Shown in pieces: positions 17,234 through 46,050 of a DNA stretch of 46,336 nucleotides; within the stretch, counting starts at the first letter, position 1, and every line of letters begins with the position of its first letter. The DNA comes from an uncultured Flavobacteriales bacterium (GTDB lineage Bacteria > Bacteroidota > Bacteroidia > CAIKAF01). The stretch covers positions 1-46,336 of the forward strand of contig CAIKAF010000009.1 in NCBI GenBank assembly GCA_903825395.1, written 5' to 3'. The position numbers were made by a program, and so were the translations under genes. Under the pieces are notes generated by a model. The model searched no databases. It was given only the letters and a program-made list of their open reading frames with translations, and was not told where the DNA came from.

Positions 17234-17297
17234 ACGCCGGGATTCACTCAGAACAAATTCTGTTGAATCATGCAAAGCATTTTTTAGGAATAAATGT

Positions 17298-17442
17298 GGG
17301 CGGGTATTCCGGCTGTCAGAGCTAGTCCGCGGTGCCGGTCGGTGCCGGCAGCGGGCGCAAGGGGGCTCCCAAGGTCGCCCCTTCCGCCACGCGCCGGCTA
17401 CCGCCAGGCCCCTTGCGGGCTACCTTCTTCCATCCGGCCCGC
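17298..17442 (+). repeat. GC-rich interspersed hairpin element, copy 1
   Basis: This 145-bp GC-rich element lies at the 3' end of the desaturase gene. It starts GGGCGGGTATTCCGGCT, has the core GGCTCCCAAGGTCGCC at 17364-17379, and ends near CATCCGGCCCGC. Outer arms TAGTCCGC (17323-17330) and GCGGGCTA (17415-17422) can pair, and so can GCCGGC at 17344-17349 with 17393-17398. Copies 2 and 3 have the same length, core position and end sequences. Confidence 0.75.
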
Positions 17443-17456
17443 AATGTCATCAGAAA

Positions 17457-29175: not shown

Positions 29176-29838
29176 GTGAATTTCAATAGAATTTATGAGT
29201 ATCGTTTCAGATCAACCAGTGCTGTCAAAAAAGAAATTTTTTGGGACGTTTTAAGCCATCATTTATTTTACCGTTATTTAGGTTCGCCGAAAAAGATTTT
29301 AGATCCAGCAGGTGGAAAATGTGAATTTATTAACTCTGTTCCTTCAAAAGAAAAATGGGCAATTGATTTAGAAGAAAGCTTTATCCTTAAATTTGCAAAT
29401 AGTAATGTGAAAACTATTATTGGGTCAAATTTAGAAGTTGAAATACCCGAAAATTATTTTGATGGAATTTTCATAAGTAATTTTTTAGAGCATCTTAAAT
29501 CCCAAGAAGAAGTTTCATTATTTCTTACTAAGATGAATAAAGCCATGACAAAAAATGGAAAAATTGTTGTTATGGGGCCGAATTTTAAGTATAGTTATAA
29601 AAATTATTTTGACTTTGCAGATCACAGTGTTATTCTAACCGAATTAGGTTTGGCTGAACATCTTTATGGGGCAGGCTTTGAAATTGAAAAAGTAATTCCT
29701 CGTTTTCTTCCACTTTCTTTTAGAAGCAACCGTTTAATCCCTATTAATAAATTTATAATTACATTTTATTTGTATTTTCCTTTTTCATGGAGATTTTTCG
29801 GGCAACAATTTTTGGTTGTCGGTCAAAAAAAAATTTAG
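29176..29838 (+). CDS. AT-rich class I SAM-dependent methyltransferase
   Basis: The protein has 220 residues and starts with GTG at 29176. The core resembles Methyltransf_11-type proteins: KKILDPAGGKCEFINSV takes the place of motif I, IDLEES matches motif II, and FDGIFISNFLEHL with KMNKAMTKNGKIVVMGPNF covers motifs IV-V. The glycine-rich loop is DPAGGKCEF rather than the usual GxGxG, so SAM binding should be checked. The gene is much more AT-rich than its neighbours and stands alone between mfd (divergent) and the glycan block (convergent), which suggests recent transfer. A glycan- or lipid-modifying role is inference. Confidence 0.75.
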   Translation: MNFNRIYEYRFRSTSAVKKEIFWDVLSHHLFYRYLGSPKKILDPAGGKCEFINSVPSKEKWAIDLEESFILKFANSNVKTIIGSNLEVEIPENYFDGIFISNFLEHLKSQEEVSLFLTKMNKAMTKNGKIVVMGPNFKYSYKNYFDFADHSVILTELGLAEHLYGAGFEIEKVIPRFLPLSFRSNRLIPINKFIITFYLYFPFSWRFFGQQFLVVGQKKI

Positions 29839-29940
29839 TGTTCAGTTTTTTTTCTTTTTTTGCTGCGTTAATTTTAGGATCAGCATAAGCGTTTTGTTAA
29901 AAATCCACTTTTCCTATAATCCACTTATTTTTTTTCACTA

Positions 29941-30087
29941 CGCCCGGCGGCGGGATTGAACAGGGTTGCCCGCAAGGGTGCCGGCGGCAGGTGGCGCGTG
30001 GCGAGGAGGCGACCTTGGGAGCCACCGCAGACCGCTGCCAGCCCACCCGCAAACGCGGACAACCCGTGAAAGCCCGATAACCGCCCC
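29941..30087 (-). repeat. GC-rich interspersed hairpin element, copy 2
   Basis: This 147-bp element lies in the opposite orientation to copies 1 and 3, in the gap between the convergent methyltransferase and GT4 genes. On the minus strand it starts GGGGCGGTTATCGGGCTTTC, has the exact core GGCTCCCAAGGTCGCC (plus-strand 30008-30023), and ends CAATCCCGCCGCCGGGCG. Plus-strand arms GGGTTGCCCGC (29963-29973) and GCGGACAACCC (30055-30065) pair over 11 bp with one G-U. Confidence 0.75.
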
Positions 30088-30092
30088 AAAAA

Positions 30093-31331
30093 TTAATGCG
30101 ATTTCAACAGCTCAACGTACACCTCGTGATACAACTGAACGCCCCGGCTCAGCGAAAAGGCCTCGACGGCTCCGCCACGGCAGTGCTTAAATCCCTGATT
30201 GCGTTCGCTTTGCCAGTGCTGAATGGCGGTTTGATAGGCCCCCGAATTGAACTCCGGTATCAGAATTCCGCTGCGATAACGTCCAACTAGAGCATCGGTA
30301 TCGCCAACGCCGGTGTTGCAAAAAACCGGAATATTCATGGCCATCAATTCTCCCTGCTTGGTGGGGCTGCTGGCCTGCTTGGAATAGCTTGGGCGAATGA
30401 AGAAAACGGCGGCATCGGCCGAGCTCATGGCCAGAGGCAATTCCGCCCGGGAAAAACCCTCCACCAAAATCCGTTCGGCAGGAATCTTGCGCTGCCTCGC
30501 CGCAGACCAAACCGCATCAGAGTTGTCACGCGTGGCCAGCAAAAGGCGGGCTTCCGGCTCAAGCAAAAGAAATTCACTGAAAAAATCCAGCATCTCGTTC
30601 AGCATGTACCAGGTGCCGAGCGAACCCACATACATTAGAAGGGGGGCTGAGGGCGGCACATGGCGGACTTCCCGCCACTGCTGCCGCTGAACAGCGGTCC
30701 AGGAATCCGGATTGAAAAGCTCCAAATCGGTACAACAAGGAATAACCGTACAGGGTTTTAGGCTTAACCCATGCCGGGGCAGCATTTCCTGCATGATGGT
30801 TTTGCCTTTTTCGGTTAAGCTAATGACATGGTCTGCCCTAGATAAGAGCTTTAATTCCAGGCGTTTAAAGTAACGGTACACGACCCCAAACAAAGGGTGT
30901 TCTTTTTTCCACAATCCGGCATCGGCGCGTTCGTCCGGAAAAAAGCCCCGCATATCAAACAAGAATGGTATTCCTTTTTTTTGCCAGTAAAGGCCTTGAG
31001 GGGCGGTAATGTAGCCGCGGCAATGCAGCAATTGAAAGGGCCGTTTTCGGAACAGTTTTTTCAACTGCCGACCCAACCGCCACTGGTCGTATAGCGTCGA
31101 TAAAACCGGGGGTGATTTTGTGTAGGATATGGGCTGCCAATCAATGCCATGCCGTTGGCATTCGGCCTGCAGTCTTTCTTTGTGCCGGGCAAAAAGAGCG
31201 GGTTTTTCAAATGAAATCAGGGTGTATGACCAGCCCAATGCCGATAGTCCTTTTACATAGGGAAGCACCTGCGCTTCGCCCAAGGGGTCGCTTAATCCGT
31301 CGTACGACAAGAAGACCACATGTTTATTCAT
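30093..31331 (-). CDS. Family 4 glycosyltransferase
   Basis: This is a 412-residue GT-B fold protein. The N-terminal domain begins VVFLSYDGLSDPLGEAQVLPY, with a long FDMRGFFPDERADAG segment. The C-terminal domain starts LLMYVGSLGTWY near residue 225 and contains the donor-site SYSKQASSPTKQGELMAMNIPV near 320-340, close to the EX7E-type pattern of GT4. It is cytoplasmic and likely builds a surface glycan. Its ATG overlaps the asnB stop by 8 bp, making it the last gene of a four-gene cluster. Donor and acceptor are unknown. Confidence 0.85.
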   Translation of the reverse strand: MNKHVVFLSYDGLSDPLGEAQVLPYVKGLSALGWSYTLISFEKPALFARHKERLQAECQRHGIDWQPISYTKSPPVLSTLYDQWRLGRQLKKLFRKRPFQLLHCRGYITAPQGLYWQKKGIPFLFDMRGFFPDERADAGLWKKEHPLFGVVYRYFKRLELKLLSRADHVISLTEKGKTIMQEMLPRHGLSLKPCTVIPCCTDLELFNPDSWTAVQRQQWREVRHVPPSAPLLMYVGSLGTWYMLNEMLDFFSEFLLLEPEARLLLATRDNSDAVWSAARQRKIPAERILVEGFSRAELPLAMSSADAAVFFIRPSYSKQASSPTKQGELMAMNIPVFCNTGVGDTDALVGRYRSGILIPEFNSGAYQTAIQHWQSERNQGFKHCRGGAVEAFSLSRGVQLYHEVYVELLKSH

Positions 31332-38591: not shown

Positions 38592-38604
38592 TTTTTCTTT
38601 TTTT

Positions 38605-38753
38605 GGGGCCCTTATCCGGCTTTTGGCTGTAGCCGCTTGTGCCGGAGCTTGGTCGGCTGCGGCTTGCGTGGGGCTCCCTCTGGTCGCCTCCGCAGCCGGC
38701 CGCCCATAGCTCCGGCCCTGCGCGTCTGCCGCCGCAATCCGGGGGCCGGCGGC
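38605..38753 (+). repeat. GC-rich interspersed hairpin element, copy 3
   Basis: This 149-bp element lies between the convergent purQ and queA genes. It starts GGGGCCCTTATCCGGCTTTT, has the core GGCTCCCTCTGGTCGCC at 38672-38688, and ends CAATCCGGGGGCCGGCGG. Outer arms GCCGGAGCT (38641-38649) and AGCTCCGGC (38708-38716) are perfect inverted repeats. Inner arms TCGGCTGCGG (38653-38662) and CCGCAGCCGG (38690-38699) pair almost fully, leaving the core in the loop. Confidence 0.75.
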
Positions 38754-42878: not shown

Positions 42879-44417
42879 ATGAATCTGCGCCAAACGCTGC
42901 TCTTTTTGTTTCTATCCTGCTCCCTGCTCGCGCAACAAGTAGGCATCAACACCCAACAACCCGATGCCTCGGCATTATTTGACATTTCAGGAACTGCGGG
43001 AGGGCTGCTTATTCCCCGCATGAGTGCCGCCCAGCGAAACGCCATTCAAAACCCAGCTGAAGGGCTTTTGATTCTCAACACCAGCACCTCTTGCCTTGAG
43101 ATTCACTATCTTGCCAACGGTTGGCAAGCCATCGCCTGCAATTGCACGACAGCGCCGCTTAGTCCGGCCTCCATTTCCGGATACGCCGATGTGTGCCCAT
43201 CCCAAGCCAATATAACCTATGTGGCGGCACCCAGTTCAGGCGCTACCACCTACACCTGGCAGCTGCCCAGCGGTTGGAGCATTGTCAGCGGACAAGGAAA
43301 CGACACCCTGGTAGCCACCGCCGGAGCCGCCGGGGGCACCATCTCGGTGGTCGCCTCAAACCCTTGCGGGACCTCCTCGCCAACCCTACTGCCTGTAACA
43401 GTGCGTACTCCAAACGCCGGTTTCACCAATGCTCCGGCGACCATATCGGTGGGTACCAACATTCAATTTACGTCCAACACCGCCAATGCTTCTGCCTACG
43501 CCTGGAGTTTTCAAAACGGCAGCCCCGGCACGGCAACCTCCTACAACCCAATCGCAAGCTGGAGCCAAACCGGAAATCCGAATGTTTTTCATCGGGTAAC
43601 CCTGAATGCACAATGCAAAGACTCAAGTACAACTGCGGTAACGGTGATTAATTGCCCTGCAGGTTCTCAAACTTTTAGTTACACCGGATCTATGCAAACC
43701 TTTACGGTTCCCAATTGCGTAACTTCTGTAAATATAACCTGCAATGGAGCCGCGGGAGGCGATGGACATAACCCCGGAAATCAGCCTAAAGGGCAAGGGG
43801 GAATTGCCTCAGGAACACTTTCAGTAACTCCTGGCCAAACCCTGTATATCTACGTAGGTGGTCAAGGCCAACGATCTAGCAGTTCGCCCATGCAAGGAGG
43901 TTGGAATGGTGGCGGAAACGGGTATAACTACGGCAATACGGGCTGGACTTGTGCCGGCGGCGGCGGCGCGAGCGATGTCCGCTCTGGCGGTACTGCATTA
44001 GCCAACCGCGTTATTGTAGCTGGCGGCGGCGGCGGCGGGGGATCTGGCAGTTGGGGAAATGGGGGCGGGGGAAATGGGGGTGGAAATAGCGGTGCAAACG
44101 GCTATGATGTTGGCGGCGGCGGATATGGAGGGGATAGGCACGGAAAAGGGGGCACCCAAAATTCTGGGGGCGCTGGGGGAAGCGACCTTTCCGGCGGATC
44201 AGCAGGAAGCGCAGGGACGCTGGGGTTTGGCGGAAATGCCTCAACGGGAAGTAACACACTAGCCTCCGGGGGCGGAGGAGGATATTATGGGGGCGGAGGA
44301 GGCTCCTATCATGGCGGGGGGGGCGGAGGAGGCTCCTCCTACACAGGGGGAGTAACAAATGGCTCTACCAGTTCTGGCGGAATAACAGGTAATGGCAGCG
44401 TTGTTATCACTTGGTGA
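42879..44417 (+). CDS. Glycine-rich secreted surface protein 1 (tail-fibre-like module, PKD-like, ALK-type glycine-rich domain)
   Basis: The protein has 512 residues. The signal peptide is 1-19. Residues 20-78 are the VGINTQQPDASALFD ... LLIPRMSAAQRNAI ... EGLLILNTSTSCLE module also seen at 18612. About 95-175 and 176-259 are two PKD/Ig-like domains (TYTWQLPSGWSIVSGQG; YAWSFQNGSPGTA). From 260 a domain starting QTFSYTGSMQTFTVPNCVTS leads into long glycine-rich runs and ends NGSVVITW. This is the pattern of the ALK-type glycine-rich family, whose known members form packed polyglycine helices. No T9SS tail is visible. An adhesive or matrix role is inference. It is nearly identical to the next gene over the first 260 residues. 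Confidence 0.85.
   Translation: MNLRQTLLFLFLSCSLLAQQVGINTQQPDASALFDISGTAGGLLIPRMSAAQRNAIQNPAEGLLILNTSTSCLEIHYLANGWQAIACNCTTAPLSPASISGYADVCPSQANITYVAAPSSGATTYTWQLPSGWSIVSGQGNDTLVATAGAAGGTISVVASNPCGTSSPTLLPVTVRTPNAGFTNAPATISVGTNIQFTSNTANASAYAWSFQNGSPGTATSYNPIASWSQTGNPNVFHRVTLNAQCKDSSTTAVTVINCPAGSQTFSYTGSMQTFTVPNCVTSVNITCNGAAGGDGHNPGNQPKGQGGIASGTLSVTPGQTLYIYVGGQGQRSSSSPMQGGWNGGGNGYNYGNTGWTCAGGGGASDVRSGGTALANRVIVAGGGGGGGSGSWGNGGGGNGGGNSGANGYDVGGGGYGGDRHGKGGTQNSGGAGGSDLSGGSAGSAGTLGFGGNASTGSNTLASGGGGGYYGGGGGSYHGGGGGGGSSYTGGVTNGSTSSGGITGNGSVVITW
42932..43657 (+). repeat. 726-bp direct repeat, copy 1
   Basis: This stretch aligns without gaps to 44568-45293 (offset 1636 bp), with a few scattered, mostly silent changes. 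The encoded proteins differ at three residues in about 241. Similarity drops sharply after the codons for VTVINCP. Confidence 0.85.
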
Positions 44418-44514: not shown

Positions 44515-46050
44515 ATGAAATTGCGCCTCGCCCTTCTTTTTTTATTATTCTCTTCTTCCCTGCTTGCTCAACAAGTTGGCATCAACACCCAACAACCCGA
44601 TGCCTCGGCATTATTTGACATTTCAGGAACTGCGGGAGGGCTGCTTATTCCCCGCATGAGTACCGCCCAGCGGAACGCCATTCAAAACCCCGCCGAAGGG
44701 CTTTTGATTCTCAATACTACTACCTCTTGCCTTGAAATCCACTACCTTGCAAACGGTTGGCAAGCCATCGCCTGCAATTGCACGACAGCGCCGCTTAGCC
44801 CTGCATCCATTTCCGGATATGCCGATGTGTGCCCATCCCAAGCCAATATAACCTATGTGGCGGCACCCAGTTCGGGCGCTACCACCTACACCTGGCAGCT
44901 ACCCAGCGGTTGGAGCATTGTCAGCGGCCAAGGAAACGACACCCTGGTAGCCACCGCCGGAGCCGCTGGCGGCACCATCTCGGTGGTCGCCTCAAACCCT
45001 TGCGGGACCTCCTCACCAACCCTACTGCCTGTAACAGTGCGTACTCCAAACGCCGGTTTCACCAATGCTCCGGCTACCATATCGGTGGGTACCAACATTC
45101 AATTTACCTCCAACACCGCCAATGCTTCGGCCTATGCCTGGAGTTTTCAAAACGGCAGCCCCGGCACGGCAACCTCCTACAACCCAATCTCAAGCTGGAG
45201 CCAAACCGGAAACCCCAATGTATTTCATCGGGTAACCCTGAATGCACAATGCAAAGACTCAAGTACAACTGCGGTAACGGTGATTAATTGCCCCCCGGGA
45301 ACCCAAACCTTTAACTACAACGGGGCCATTCAAAGTTTTACCGTTCCTGCCTGTGTTTCTTCGGTGAGTATTGATTGCCGTGGGGCACAAGGGGGAGACA
45401 ACATCGATTTAATTCCACAGCAATTGGGGGGAAAGGGCGCACGAATGGTGGGTACATTTAATGTGTCTGGCGGCACTGTCCTTCAAATTATCGTAGGCCA
45501 AAAGGGCATTAATGCAACAAGCGGCAACTCGGCCAATGGCGGCGGCGGCGGCGGCGGCGGAAGCTTTGTCTGGGTACAAGGACAAACAAACCAGCCACTT
45601 ATCGCCGCAGGTGGTGGTGGGGGCTCTTGCCTTACCAACAATGGGGCGCCCCATTATTATGGAAAAGACGGAGTTACCACCAATGCCGGAAGCGGAAGCC
45701 GAAGCCACGATGCCTTTAGCAATGCACCGGGAGGTACCGCCGGACAAGATGGATATGGTGGTTCGGGGGGAGGAAAAGGTTGGATATCTATCGTTCAAAA
45801 TCCGGCAGGGAAATTGGCTACAAACTATGGCGGAAATGGTGGATACGGTGGTGGTGGTGGCAGTGGCGCAAGCTGCTGCGGCAATCCTATGCATGCTGCT
45901 GGGGCCGGAGGGGGATACTCCGGCGGTGGGGCAGGAGGTTCTACCTATTACTATGGTGGGGGAGGCGGAGGATCCTACAACTCCGGTTCAAACACTACCG
46001 CCACCGGAGGGTTTCAAAGCGGCAACGGGCAAGTTATTATTACTTGGTAG
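44515..46050 (+). CDS. Glycine-rich secreted surface protein 2 (paralogue of 42879)
   Basis: The protein has 511 residues. The signal peptide (MKLRLALLFLLFSSSLLAQ) differs from copy 1. Residues 20-259 are almost identical to copy 1 (A/T, S/T and A/S substitutions only). From 260 the protein has its own version of the glycine-rich domain: QTFNYNGAIQSFTVPACVSS, then GGKGARMVGTFNVSGGTVLQIIVGQKG, several poly-Gly runs, a cysteine pair SCCGNP, and the ending NGQVIITW. The two back halves align only in framework. Export is clear, and function is unknown. A terminator-like hairpin follows at 46167. Confidence 0.85.
   Translation: MKLRLALLFLLFSSSLLAQQVGINTQQPDASALFDISGTAGGLLIPRMSTAQRNAIQNPAEGLLILNTTTSCLEIHYLANGWQAIACNCTTAPLSPASISGYADVCPSQANITYVAAPSSGATTYTWQLPSGWSIVSGQGNDTLVATAGAAGGTISVVASNPCGTSSPTLLPVTVRTPNAGFTNAPATISVGTNIQFTSNTANASAYAWSFQNGSPGTATSYNPISSWSQTGNPNVFHRVTLNAQCKDSSTTAVTVINCPPGTQTFNYNGAIQSFTVPACVSSVSIDCRGAQGGDNIDLIPQQLGGKGARMVGTFNVSGGTVLQIIVGQKGINATSGNSANGGGGGGGGSFVWVQGQTNQPLIAAGGGGGSCLTNNGAPHYYGKDGVTTNAGSGSRSHDAFSNAPGGTAGQDGYGGSGGGKGWISIVQNPAGKLATNYGGNGGYGGGGGSGASCCGNPMHAAGAGGGYSGGGAGGSTYYYGGGGGGSYNSGSNTTATGGFQSGNGQVIITW
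44568..45293 (+). repeat. 726-bp direct repeat, copy 2
   Basis: This is the partner of 42932-43657. The homology starts inside the signal-peptide region and stops at the junction with the glycine-rich domain, so the boundary matches protein domain borders. Confidence 0.85.

Follow-up and report, generated by a model that had tools for sequence, protein, structure and literature searches.

Three copies of a GC-rich element lie in a 46,336-nt stretch of DNA from an uncultured Flavobacteriales bacterium (the window), and the initial annotation of this sequence noted that their arms pair in every copy despite different sequences. This raises the question of whether the arms are kept complementary by selection on structure or are renewed by palindrome-based copying, and of what such an element might do.

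A highly repeated element in Bacteroidota genomes

The element is about 145 nt long and is dispersed at at least 150 places in the window's own genome, a Bacteroidota genome of 2.63 Mb (G000). A DNA similarity search of this genome with copy 2 matched 43 places, and the best-matching copies still differ from copy 2 by about 13–20%. We then searched with a covariance model (R1), trained on 30 copies, with copy 2 among them but not copies 1 and 3. Using cmsearch, R1 found at least 150 places in G000, each with E < 1e-11, as well as 139 in a close relative (G003) and at least 150 in a more distant one (G001).

Copy 2 (29940–30088, + strand) has a GC content of 72%, scores 136.3 bits with R1 as a member of its training set and takes the consensus rod fold at −75.8 kcal/mol. 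Copy 1 (17297–17448) and copy 3 (38604–38753) are both in the − orientation. The former, although absent from the training set, scores 85.5 bits, while the latter is divergent (17.2 bits, E 0.093) with a rod fold at −81.0 kcal/mol. Some copies also occur as head-to-head inverted pairs (L113:2501-2830, L142:2501-2875, L114:5714-6463 and L146:2501-2833), spaced 29–75 nt apart in three of the four cases and about 450 nt in L114.

The named carriers of the element core are Bacteroidota metagenome-assembled genomes that, going by their names, come from lakes and the Caspian, for example Flavobacteriales ErkenSummer_bin-6618; a lake is presumably also the habitat of the window's organism. The searches made in plasmids, phages and viral contigs found no copy, and we rejected spread by such vehicles for this reason.

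All copies form one rod with a conserved base and tip

Folding of 32 copies gave one long rod in every case, at about −73 to −94 kcal/mol. From the base inward, an outer stem of 5 bp and a 3'-side bulge lead to a basal module, which is followed by a stem carrying a single conserved C-A step, then by a long, variable helix and finally by the tip. In copy 2 the outer stem P1 pairs GGCGG (29946–29950) with CCGCC (30081–30085) on the + strand; other copies have GCGGC/GCCGC, GCGGG/CCCGC, GCGGT/ACCGC or GCAGC/GCTGC at this place. The basal module, with the consensus GGGAUUGAAC / GUGAAAGCCC, lies at 29952–29961 and 30066–30075 (+ strand) and comprises GGG/CCC, an A-G mismatch, UU/AA and tandem G-A pairs. 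Among 97 copies it is nearly invariant, its parts GGGAUUGA and GAAAGCCC included, with the exception of the AC/GU step. Helix 3 follows, its arms in copy 2 being GGGUUGCCCGC (29963–29973) and GCGGACAACCC (30055–30065), again on the + strand. The middle helix occurs in two subtypes of nearly wholly different sequence and equal pairing.

The tip domain of copy 2 (30000–30030, + strand) reads GGCGAGGAGGCGAC[CUUG]GGAGCCACCGCAG and contains an A-A mismatch, tandem G-A pairs and a tetraloop at 30014–30017; its consensus is GGCGAGGAGGCGAC-tetraloop-GGAGCCACCGC. The tip helix is intact in all of 98 copies, and the domain is also present in distant genomes. Across 99 aligned rows the tetraloop is UUUA in 42, CUUG in 39 and GUCA, GCGA or GUGA in 13. 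About 15 places in another genome (G127) match R1 positions 62–92 alone, i.e., the 31-nt tip hairpin (e.g., C85:121503-121533 and C56:30335-30365), which suggests that no other module is as conserved as the tip, or that the tip also occurs alone.

With this structure at hand the arms quoted in the initial annotation can be placed. They exist as quoted and they pair, but they are not the outer arms. The copy 1 arms, TAGTCCGC (17323–17330) and GCGGGCTA (at about 17416), and the copy 2 arms, of which TTGTCCGC is the minus strand of 30055–30062 and its partner the minus strand of 29966–29973 (TTGCCCGC on the + strand), belong to helix 3; in copy 2 the outermost pairing is that of GGCGG with CCGCC. 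Pairing of these arms holds except for one non-Watson-Crick step, which is U-G on the minus and C-A on the plus strand. In copy 3, GCCGGAGCT (38641–38649) and AGCTCCGGC (38708–38716) pair one helix further in and have no homology to the arms quoted for the other two copies. The second, inner stem described for copy 3 was confirmed as TCGGCTGCGG (38653–38662) with CCGCAGCCGG.

Compensatory changes support selection on structure

Over 98 copies, 96.9% of the cells at paired positions are paired and two-sided changes occur at 28 of 36 pairs, including all eight pairs scored in helix 3. When the partners were slid by one to three columns, pairing never exceeded 50%, and the covariation score of 0.327 fell to 0.040 or less. 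We also applied a phylogeny-aware G-test to 96 copies, modelled on R-scape (FastTree tree, parsimony substitutions re-dealt along the branches, APC correction, 200 nulls). Significance (E ≤ 0.05) was reached by 14 pairs; the rod accounts for 13, and the remaining one (columns 24–161) extends a helix. This test is a re-implementation and not R-scape itself, and its alignment was fitted to R1 and is hence biased towards structure. The bias is answered in part by the slid controls and by a MAFFT alignment made without structure, in which two-sided changes still occur at 15 of 36 pairs. The expectation that covarying pairs would persist once more copies were aligned thus survives, and the compensatory changes are real, far beyond chance and far stronger than could be seen from the three copies of the window.

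Orthologous loci allowed us to follow single copies. In G003 the element is present at 30 of the 30 orthologous sites examined, and we therefore see no recent transposition. At these sites the element diverges by 1.2%, adjacent intergenic DNA by 4.1% and DNA further away, largely coding, by 3.1%; the element thus evolves about three times more slowly than the intergenic DNA beside it, which indicates selection acting copy by copy. Gene conversion among copies is an unlikely cause of the low divergence because even the closest G000 copies remain so different from copy 2. In G001, where most of about a dozen mappable sites are occupied, four well-aligned sites show 11.6% divergence in the element compared with 21.9% in the flanks, together with nine two-sided Watson-Crick replacements. 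One of these (A-U to G-C) is in copy 3, whose ortholog lies at the same place. No clean empty site with a target duplication was found, and the two apparent empty G001 sites examined have rearranged flanks. On the time scale tested, inheritance would be vertical and not due to active mobility.

Of the two readings offered in the initial annotation, selection on structure is borne out by the covariation, the slow evolution at the 30 orthologous sites and the paired double changes at single loci. Palindrome-based copying of the arms is not supported, since it should yield perfect complementarity, yet the same mismatches (tandem G-A, A-G and C-A) and bulges persist in most copies.

The element is an enlarged relative of the Flavo-1 RNA

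At the gathering threshold Rfam gave no match in the window, and a relaxed search with copy 2 returned chance matches alone, with no match to Flavo-1 (RF01705) even at E ≤ 10. Flavo-1 is present in 138 of 395 sampled Bacteroidia genomes (about a third) but gave no match in G000, G001, G003 and G005, four element-rich genomes of this genus. R1 in turn recognises none of 15 Flavo-1 loci tested and detects no tip domain there. Therefore we did not file the element as a member of Flavo-1.

The basal motif of Flavo-1, GAUUGAA / GGAAAGC between two short stems, is nevertheless found in the element as GGGAUUGAAC / GUGAAAGCCC. Both share the outer stem, the 3'-side bulge, a 3-bp stem, the GAUUGAA/GGAAAGC internal loop with tandem G-A pairs and the next stem. 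Both also have a T-rich 5' flank and an A-rich 3' flank, and both occur between genes in many copies in Bacteroidota, with no preference for orientation. In contrast to Flavo-1, the element is about twice as long and GC-rich, it carries a conserved tip domain, and copy 2 scores nothing on RF01705.

Since the Flavo-1 loci tested escape R1, the link between the two rests on intermediates. Full-length relatives turned up with R1 in several further Bacteroidia families. Two long ones with the tip domain (L103 and L104) and L105, in which the middle is shortened, score 28–32 bits on Flavo-1, the long tip-domain relatives 28–30 bits, where the gathering cut-off is 42 bits. A short relative found by R1 (L179) reaches 42.0 bits, equal to the gathering score, and the same genome carries a long copy (L101). 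We describe the element as a previously undescribed, extended relative of Flavo-1, bridged by intermediates; the conserved tip domain with its tandem G·A pairs and tetraloop, the GC-richness and the very high copy number are new compared with Flavo-1. The short relatives of about 88–101 nt (L105 in G056; L175, L179, L182 and L186 in G270) align to both ends of R1 but lack the middle, and score 31–42 bits on Flavo-1, making them natural intermediates.

In F. psychrophilum, Flavo-1 matches lie indifferently sense or antisense to transcripts, many are outside transcribed regions, and the function is unassigned (PMC9723704). The papers on Flavo-1 consulted, from 2010 to 2022, give no function.

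Copies lie between genes, close to stop codons

Placement relative to genes was determined for 124 copies in G000 with a simple ORF caller. Only six lie inside ORFs. The 117 placed copies comprise 47 between convergent genes, 19 between divergent genes and, in tandem gene pairs, 22 sense and 29 antisense, compared with 39 convergent, 63 divergent and 136 tandem gaps free of the element (convergent versus divergent, p = 3.6e-5). Tandem pairs in G001 and G003 together hold 15 sense and 30 antisense copies. For 76 of the 117 copies the gene on the 3' side has its stop codon close by, at a median of 19 nt (quartiles 11–37). Copy 2 itself is flanked by two convergent genes, one for a methyltransferase with its stop at 29838 and one for a glycosyltransferase with its stop at 30093.

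The flanks are skewed in composition. About 20 nt upstream of the 124 copies is T/G-rich and C-poor, seen in copy 2 as a T-rich stretch at 29927–29938, and the downstream tail is A/C-rich and G-poor (30086–30100 in copy 2, + strand for both), with G at about 1–8% over some 18 nt. Extended pairing between the two flanks was rejected because the matched 5' and 3' flanks paired no better than flanks that had been swapped. The 5' flanks are mostly TTGAGTGGCC- or TTGAGGGGGCC-like, while a minority ends in ACCACGCCC, both kinds far above composition; the words TTGAGTGG and TATTGGG are likewise shared beyond base composition. The Bacteroidota −7 motif TAnnTTTG does not exceed composition in the 5' flank (32 versus 26.8 expected), and we rejected an own promoter of this type. 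The element resembles Rho-independent terminators in being a GC-rich hairpin close behind stop codons, but differs from them in that T-rich DNA precedes it, A-rich DNA follows it and a T-run directly after the rod is missing in either direction (4/51 in the + and 0/71 in the − direction). An intrinsic terminator was rejected on this ground; termination, if any, is therefore not intrinsic.

The + strand probably folds

Were both strands equally important, one would expect as many G-U as A-C intermediates. Counting single-step changes on the tree, we obtained 28.5 events from Watson-Crick to G-U against 10.4 to A-C (p = 0.003), and a second alignment gave 55 against 24 (p = 0.0006). A column-wise sign test was not significant (11 versus 5, p = 0.21), and one conserved step points the opposite way, being C-A when read on the + strand but a U-G wobble on the minus strand. 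Because single-step G-U intermediates outnumber A-C, it is probably the + strand that folds, although this is not certain.

Possible roles of the element

Our best guess is that the element acts at the RNA level as a boundary or 3'-end rod, because it is intergenic, enriched between convergent genes and situated about 19 nt from a stop codon. We tentatively favour, as a real possibility, the full reading of it as a GC-rich, apically extended Flavo-1 relative that forms an RNA rod at transcript boundaries at at least 150 intergenic places per genome. The transcribed element would fold into a nuclease-resistant rod that could mark and protect transcript ends, or keep transcription from running from one gene into its neighbour, in most cases a convergent one. 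The conserved base (UUGA/GAAA) and the tip (GGCGAC-tetraloop-GGAGCC) might be what a protein reads, and the helix between them would need pairing alone. The tip is RNA-like, with its tandem G-A pairs and CUUG, GNNA or UUUA loops, and counts in favour of an RNA. The weak point of the boundary RNA is the indifference to orientation, which it has in common with Flavo-1: in tandem gene pairs read-through would therefore yield the + strand at part of the copies only. The lack of a promoter motif beyond base composition, the conserved C-A step, the non-significant sign test, the missing T-run and the many Flavo-1 matches outside transcribed regions in F. psychrophilum also count against it.

Several other explanations share some of this evidence. 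It is unlikely that the element is a REP/BIME-like DNA palindrome that owes its spread to a Y1 (HUH) transposase and whose use, if it has any, is at the DNA level, for instance in binding gyrase or a nucleoid protein close to the ends of genes. Like REP/BIME sequences with their RAYT (TnpA-REP), the copies are dispersed imperfect palindromes of high number, intergenic near 3' ends, found in either orientation, enriched between convergent genes and sometimes paired head to head. G000 also holds three Y1 transposase genes, one of them RAYT-like with an element copy 150 nt away; a Y1 transposase gene is present in G003 as well, whereas copy-rich G001 and G005 have none. REP/RAYT elements are described in one account as palindromes of 20–40 bp tagged at one end with GTAG or CGTC (PMC3733652). 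In the present copies GTAG occurs in the first 16 nt of 5 of 97, CGTC in 0 of 97, and the final 16 nt contain neither CTAC nor GACG in any copy. REP/RAYT identity was rejected as the tag is absent, the length of about 145 nt is wrong and the transposase is missing from two copy-rich genomes; strong RNA-like covariation, locus-by-locus constraint, full occupancy in G003 and a wobble-pair bias between strands, not expected of a symmetric cruciform, also speak against a DNA palindrome of this sort. Decay of a formerly mobile, non-autonomous element, its arms kept complementary by palindrome-templated copying, would fit a dispersed multi-copy family with some sites unoccupied in G001, but it is already disfavoured and very improbable: the element evolves more slowly than flanking DNA at orthologous sites, and arm copying would erase the conserved mismatches and bulges. 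The RAYT-like ORF (L045:1087-1719, + strand, contig C26 of G000) has MPDHFH and QRSYHD motifs, the neighbouring element copy is on the opposite strand, and G000 has two further Y1_Tnp matches.

The remaining alternatives likewise place the function in RNA. The Rfam label 'sRNA' for Flavo-1 implies independently transcribed small RNAs with an own promoter per copy, and discrete ends, a 5' flank with conserved words and a + strand that probably folds are in line with this. It is nonetheless distinctly unlikely, as the TAnnTTTG motif is not enriched, so many near-equivalent copies are unusual for an sRNA gene and many F. psychrophilum Flavo-1 matches lie outside transcribed regions (PMC9723704). 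Improbable, too, is a 3' UTR structure in antisense orientation, belonging to the gene whose stop codon is about 19 nt from the element's 3' side. The tight stop-codon spacing and the conserved C-A, which becomes a U-G wobble on that strand, would suit such a structure; the variable pairs favour the other strand, and the tandem G-A pairs would turn into C-U mismatches.

Extending the boundary-rod reading, the Flavo-1 superfamily, including the tip-domain class, might consist of Bacteroidota-specific transcript-boundary RNAs, hundreds per genome, read at base and tip by a dedicated RNA-binding protein. We consider this generalisation quite unlikely; if true, it would constitute an RNA-level counterpart of the REP/BIME system with genome-wide control of 3' ends. 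Being longer, highly conserved and present in at least 150 copies, this class yields a much stronger signal than Flavo-1. Selection on individual copies, a probable folding strand and two candidate protein-contact sites provide direct experimental handles on a long-standing orphan RNA.

An apparent tandem duplication in the window

Elsewhere in the window, two adjacent ORFs at 42879–44417 (512 aa) and 44515–46050 (511 aa) score identically for a PKD-like domain and have nested ORFs at matching positions, and are apparently a tandem duplication. Their C-terminal parts differ, an ALK/LTK glycine-rich domain being matched in the first only.
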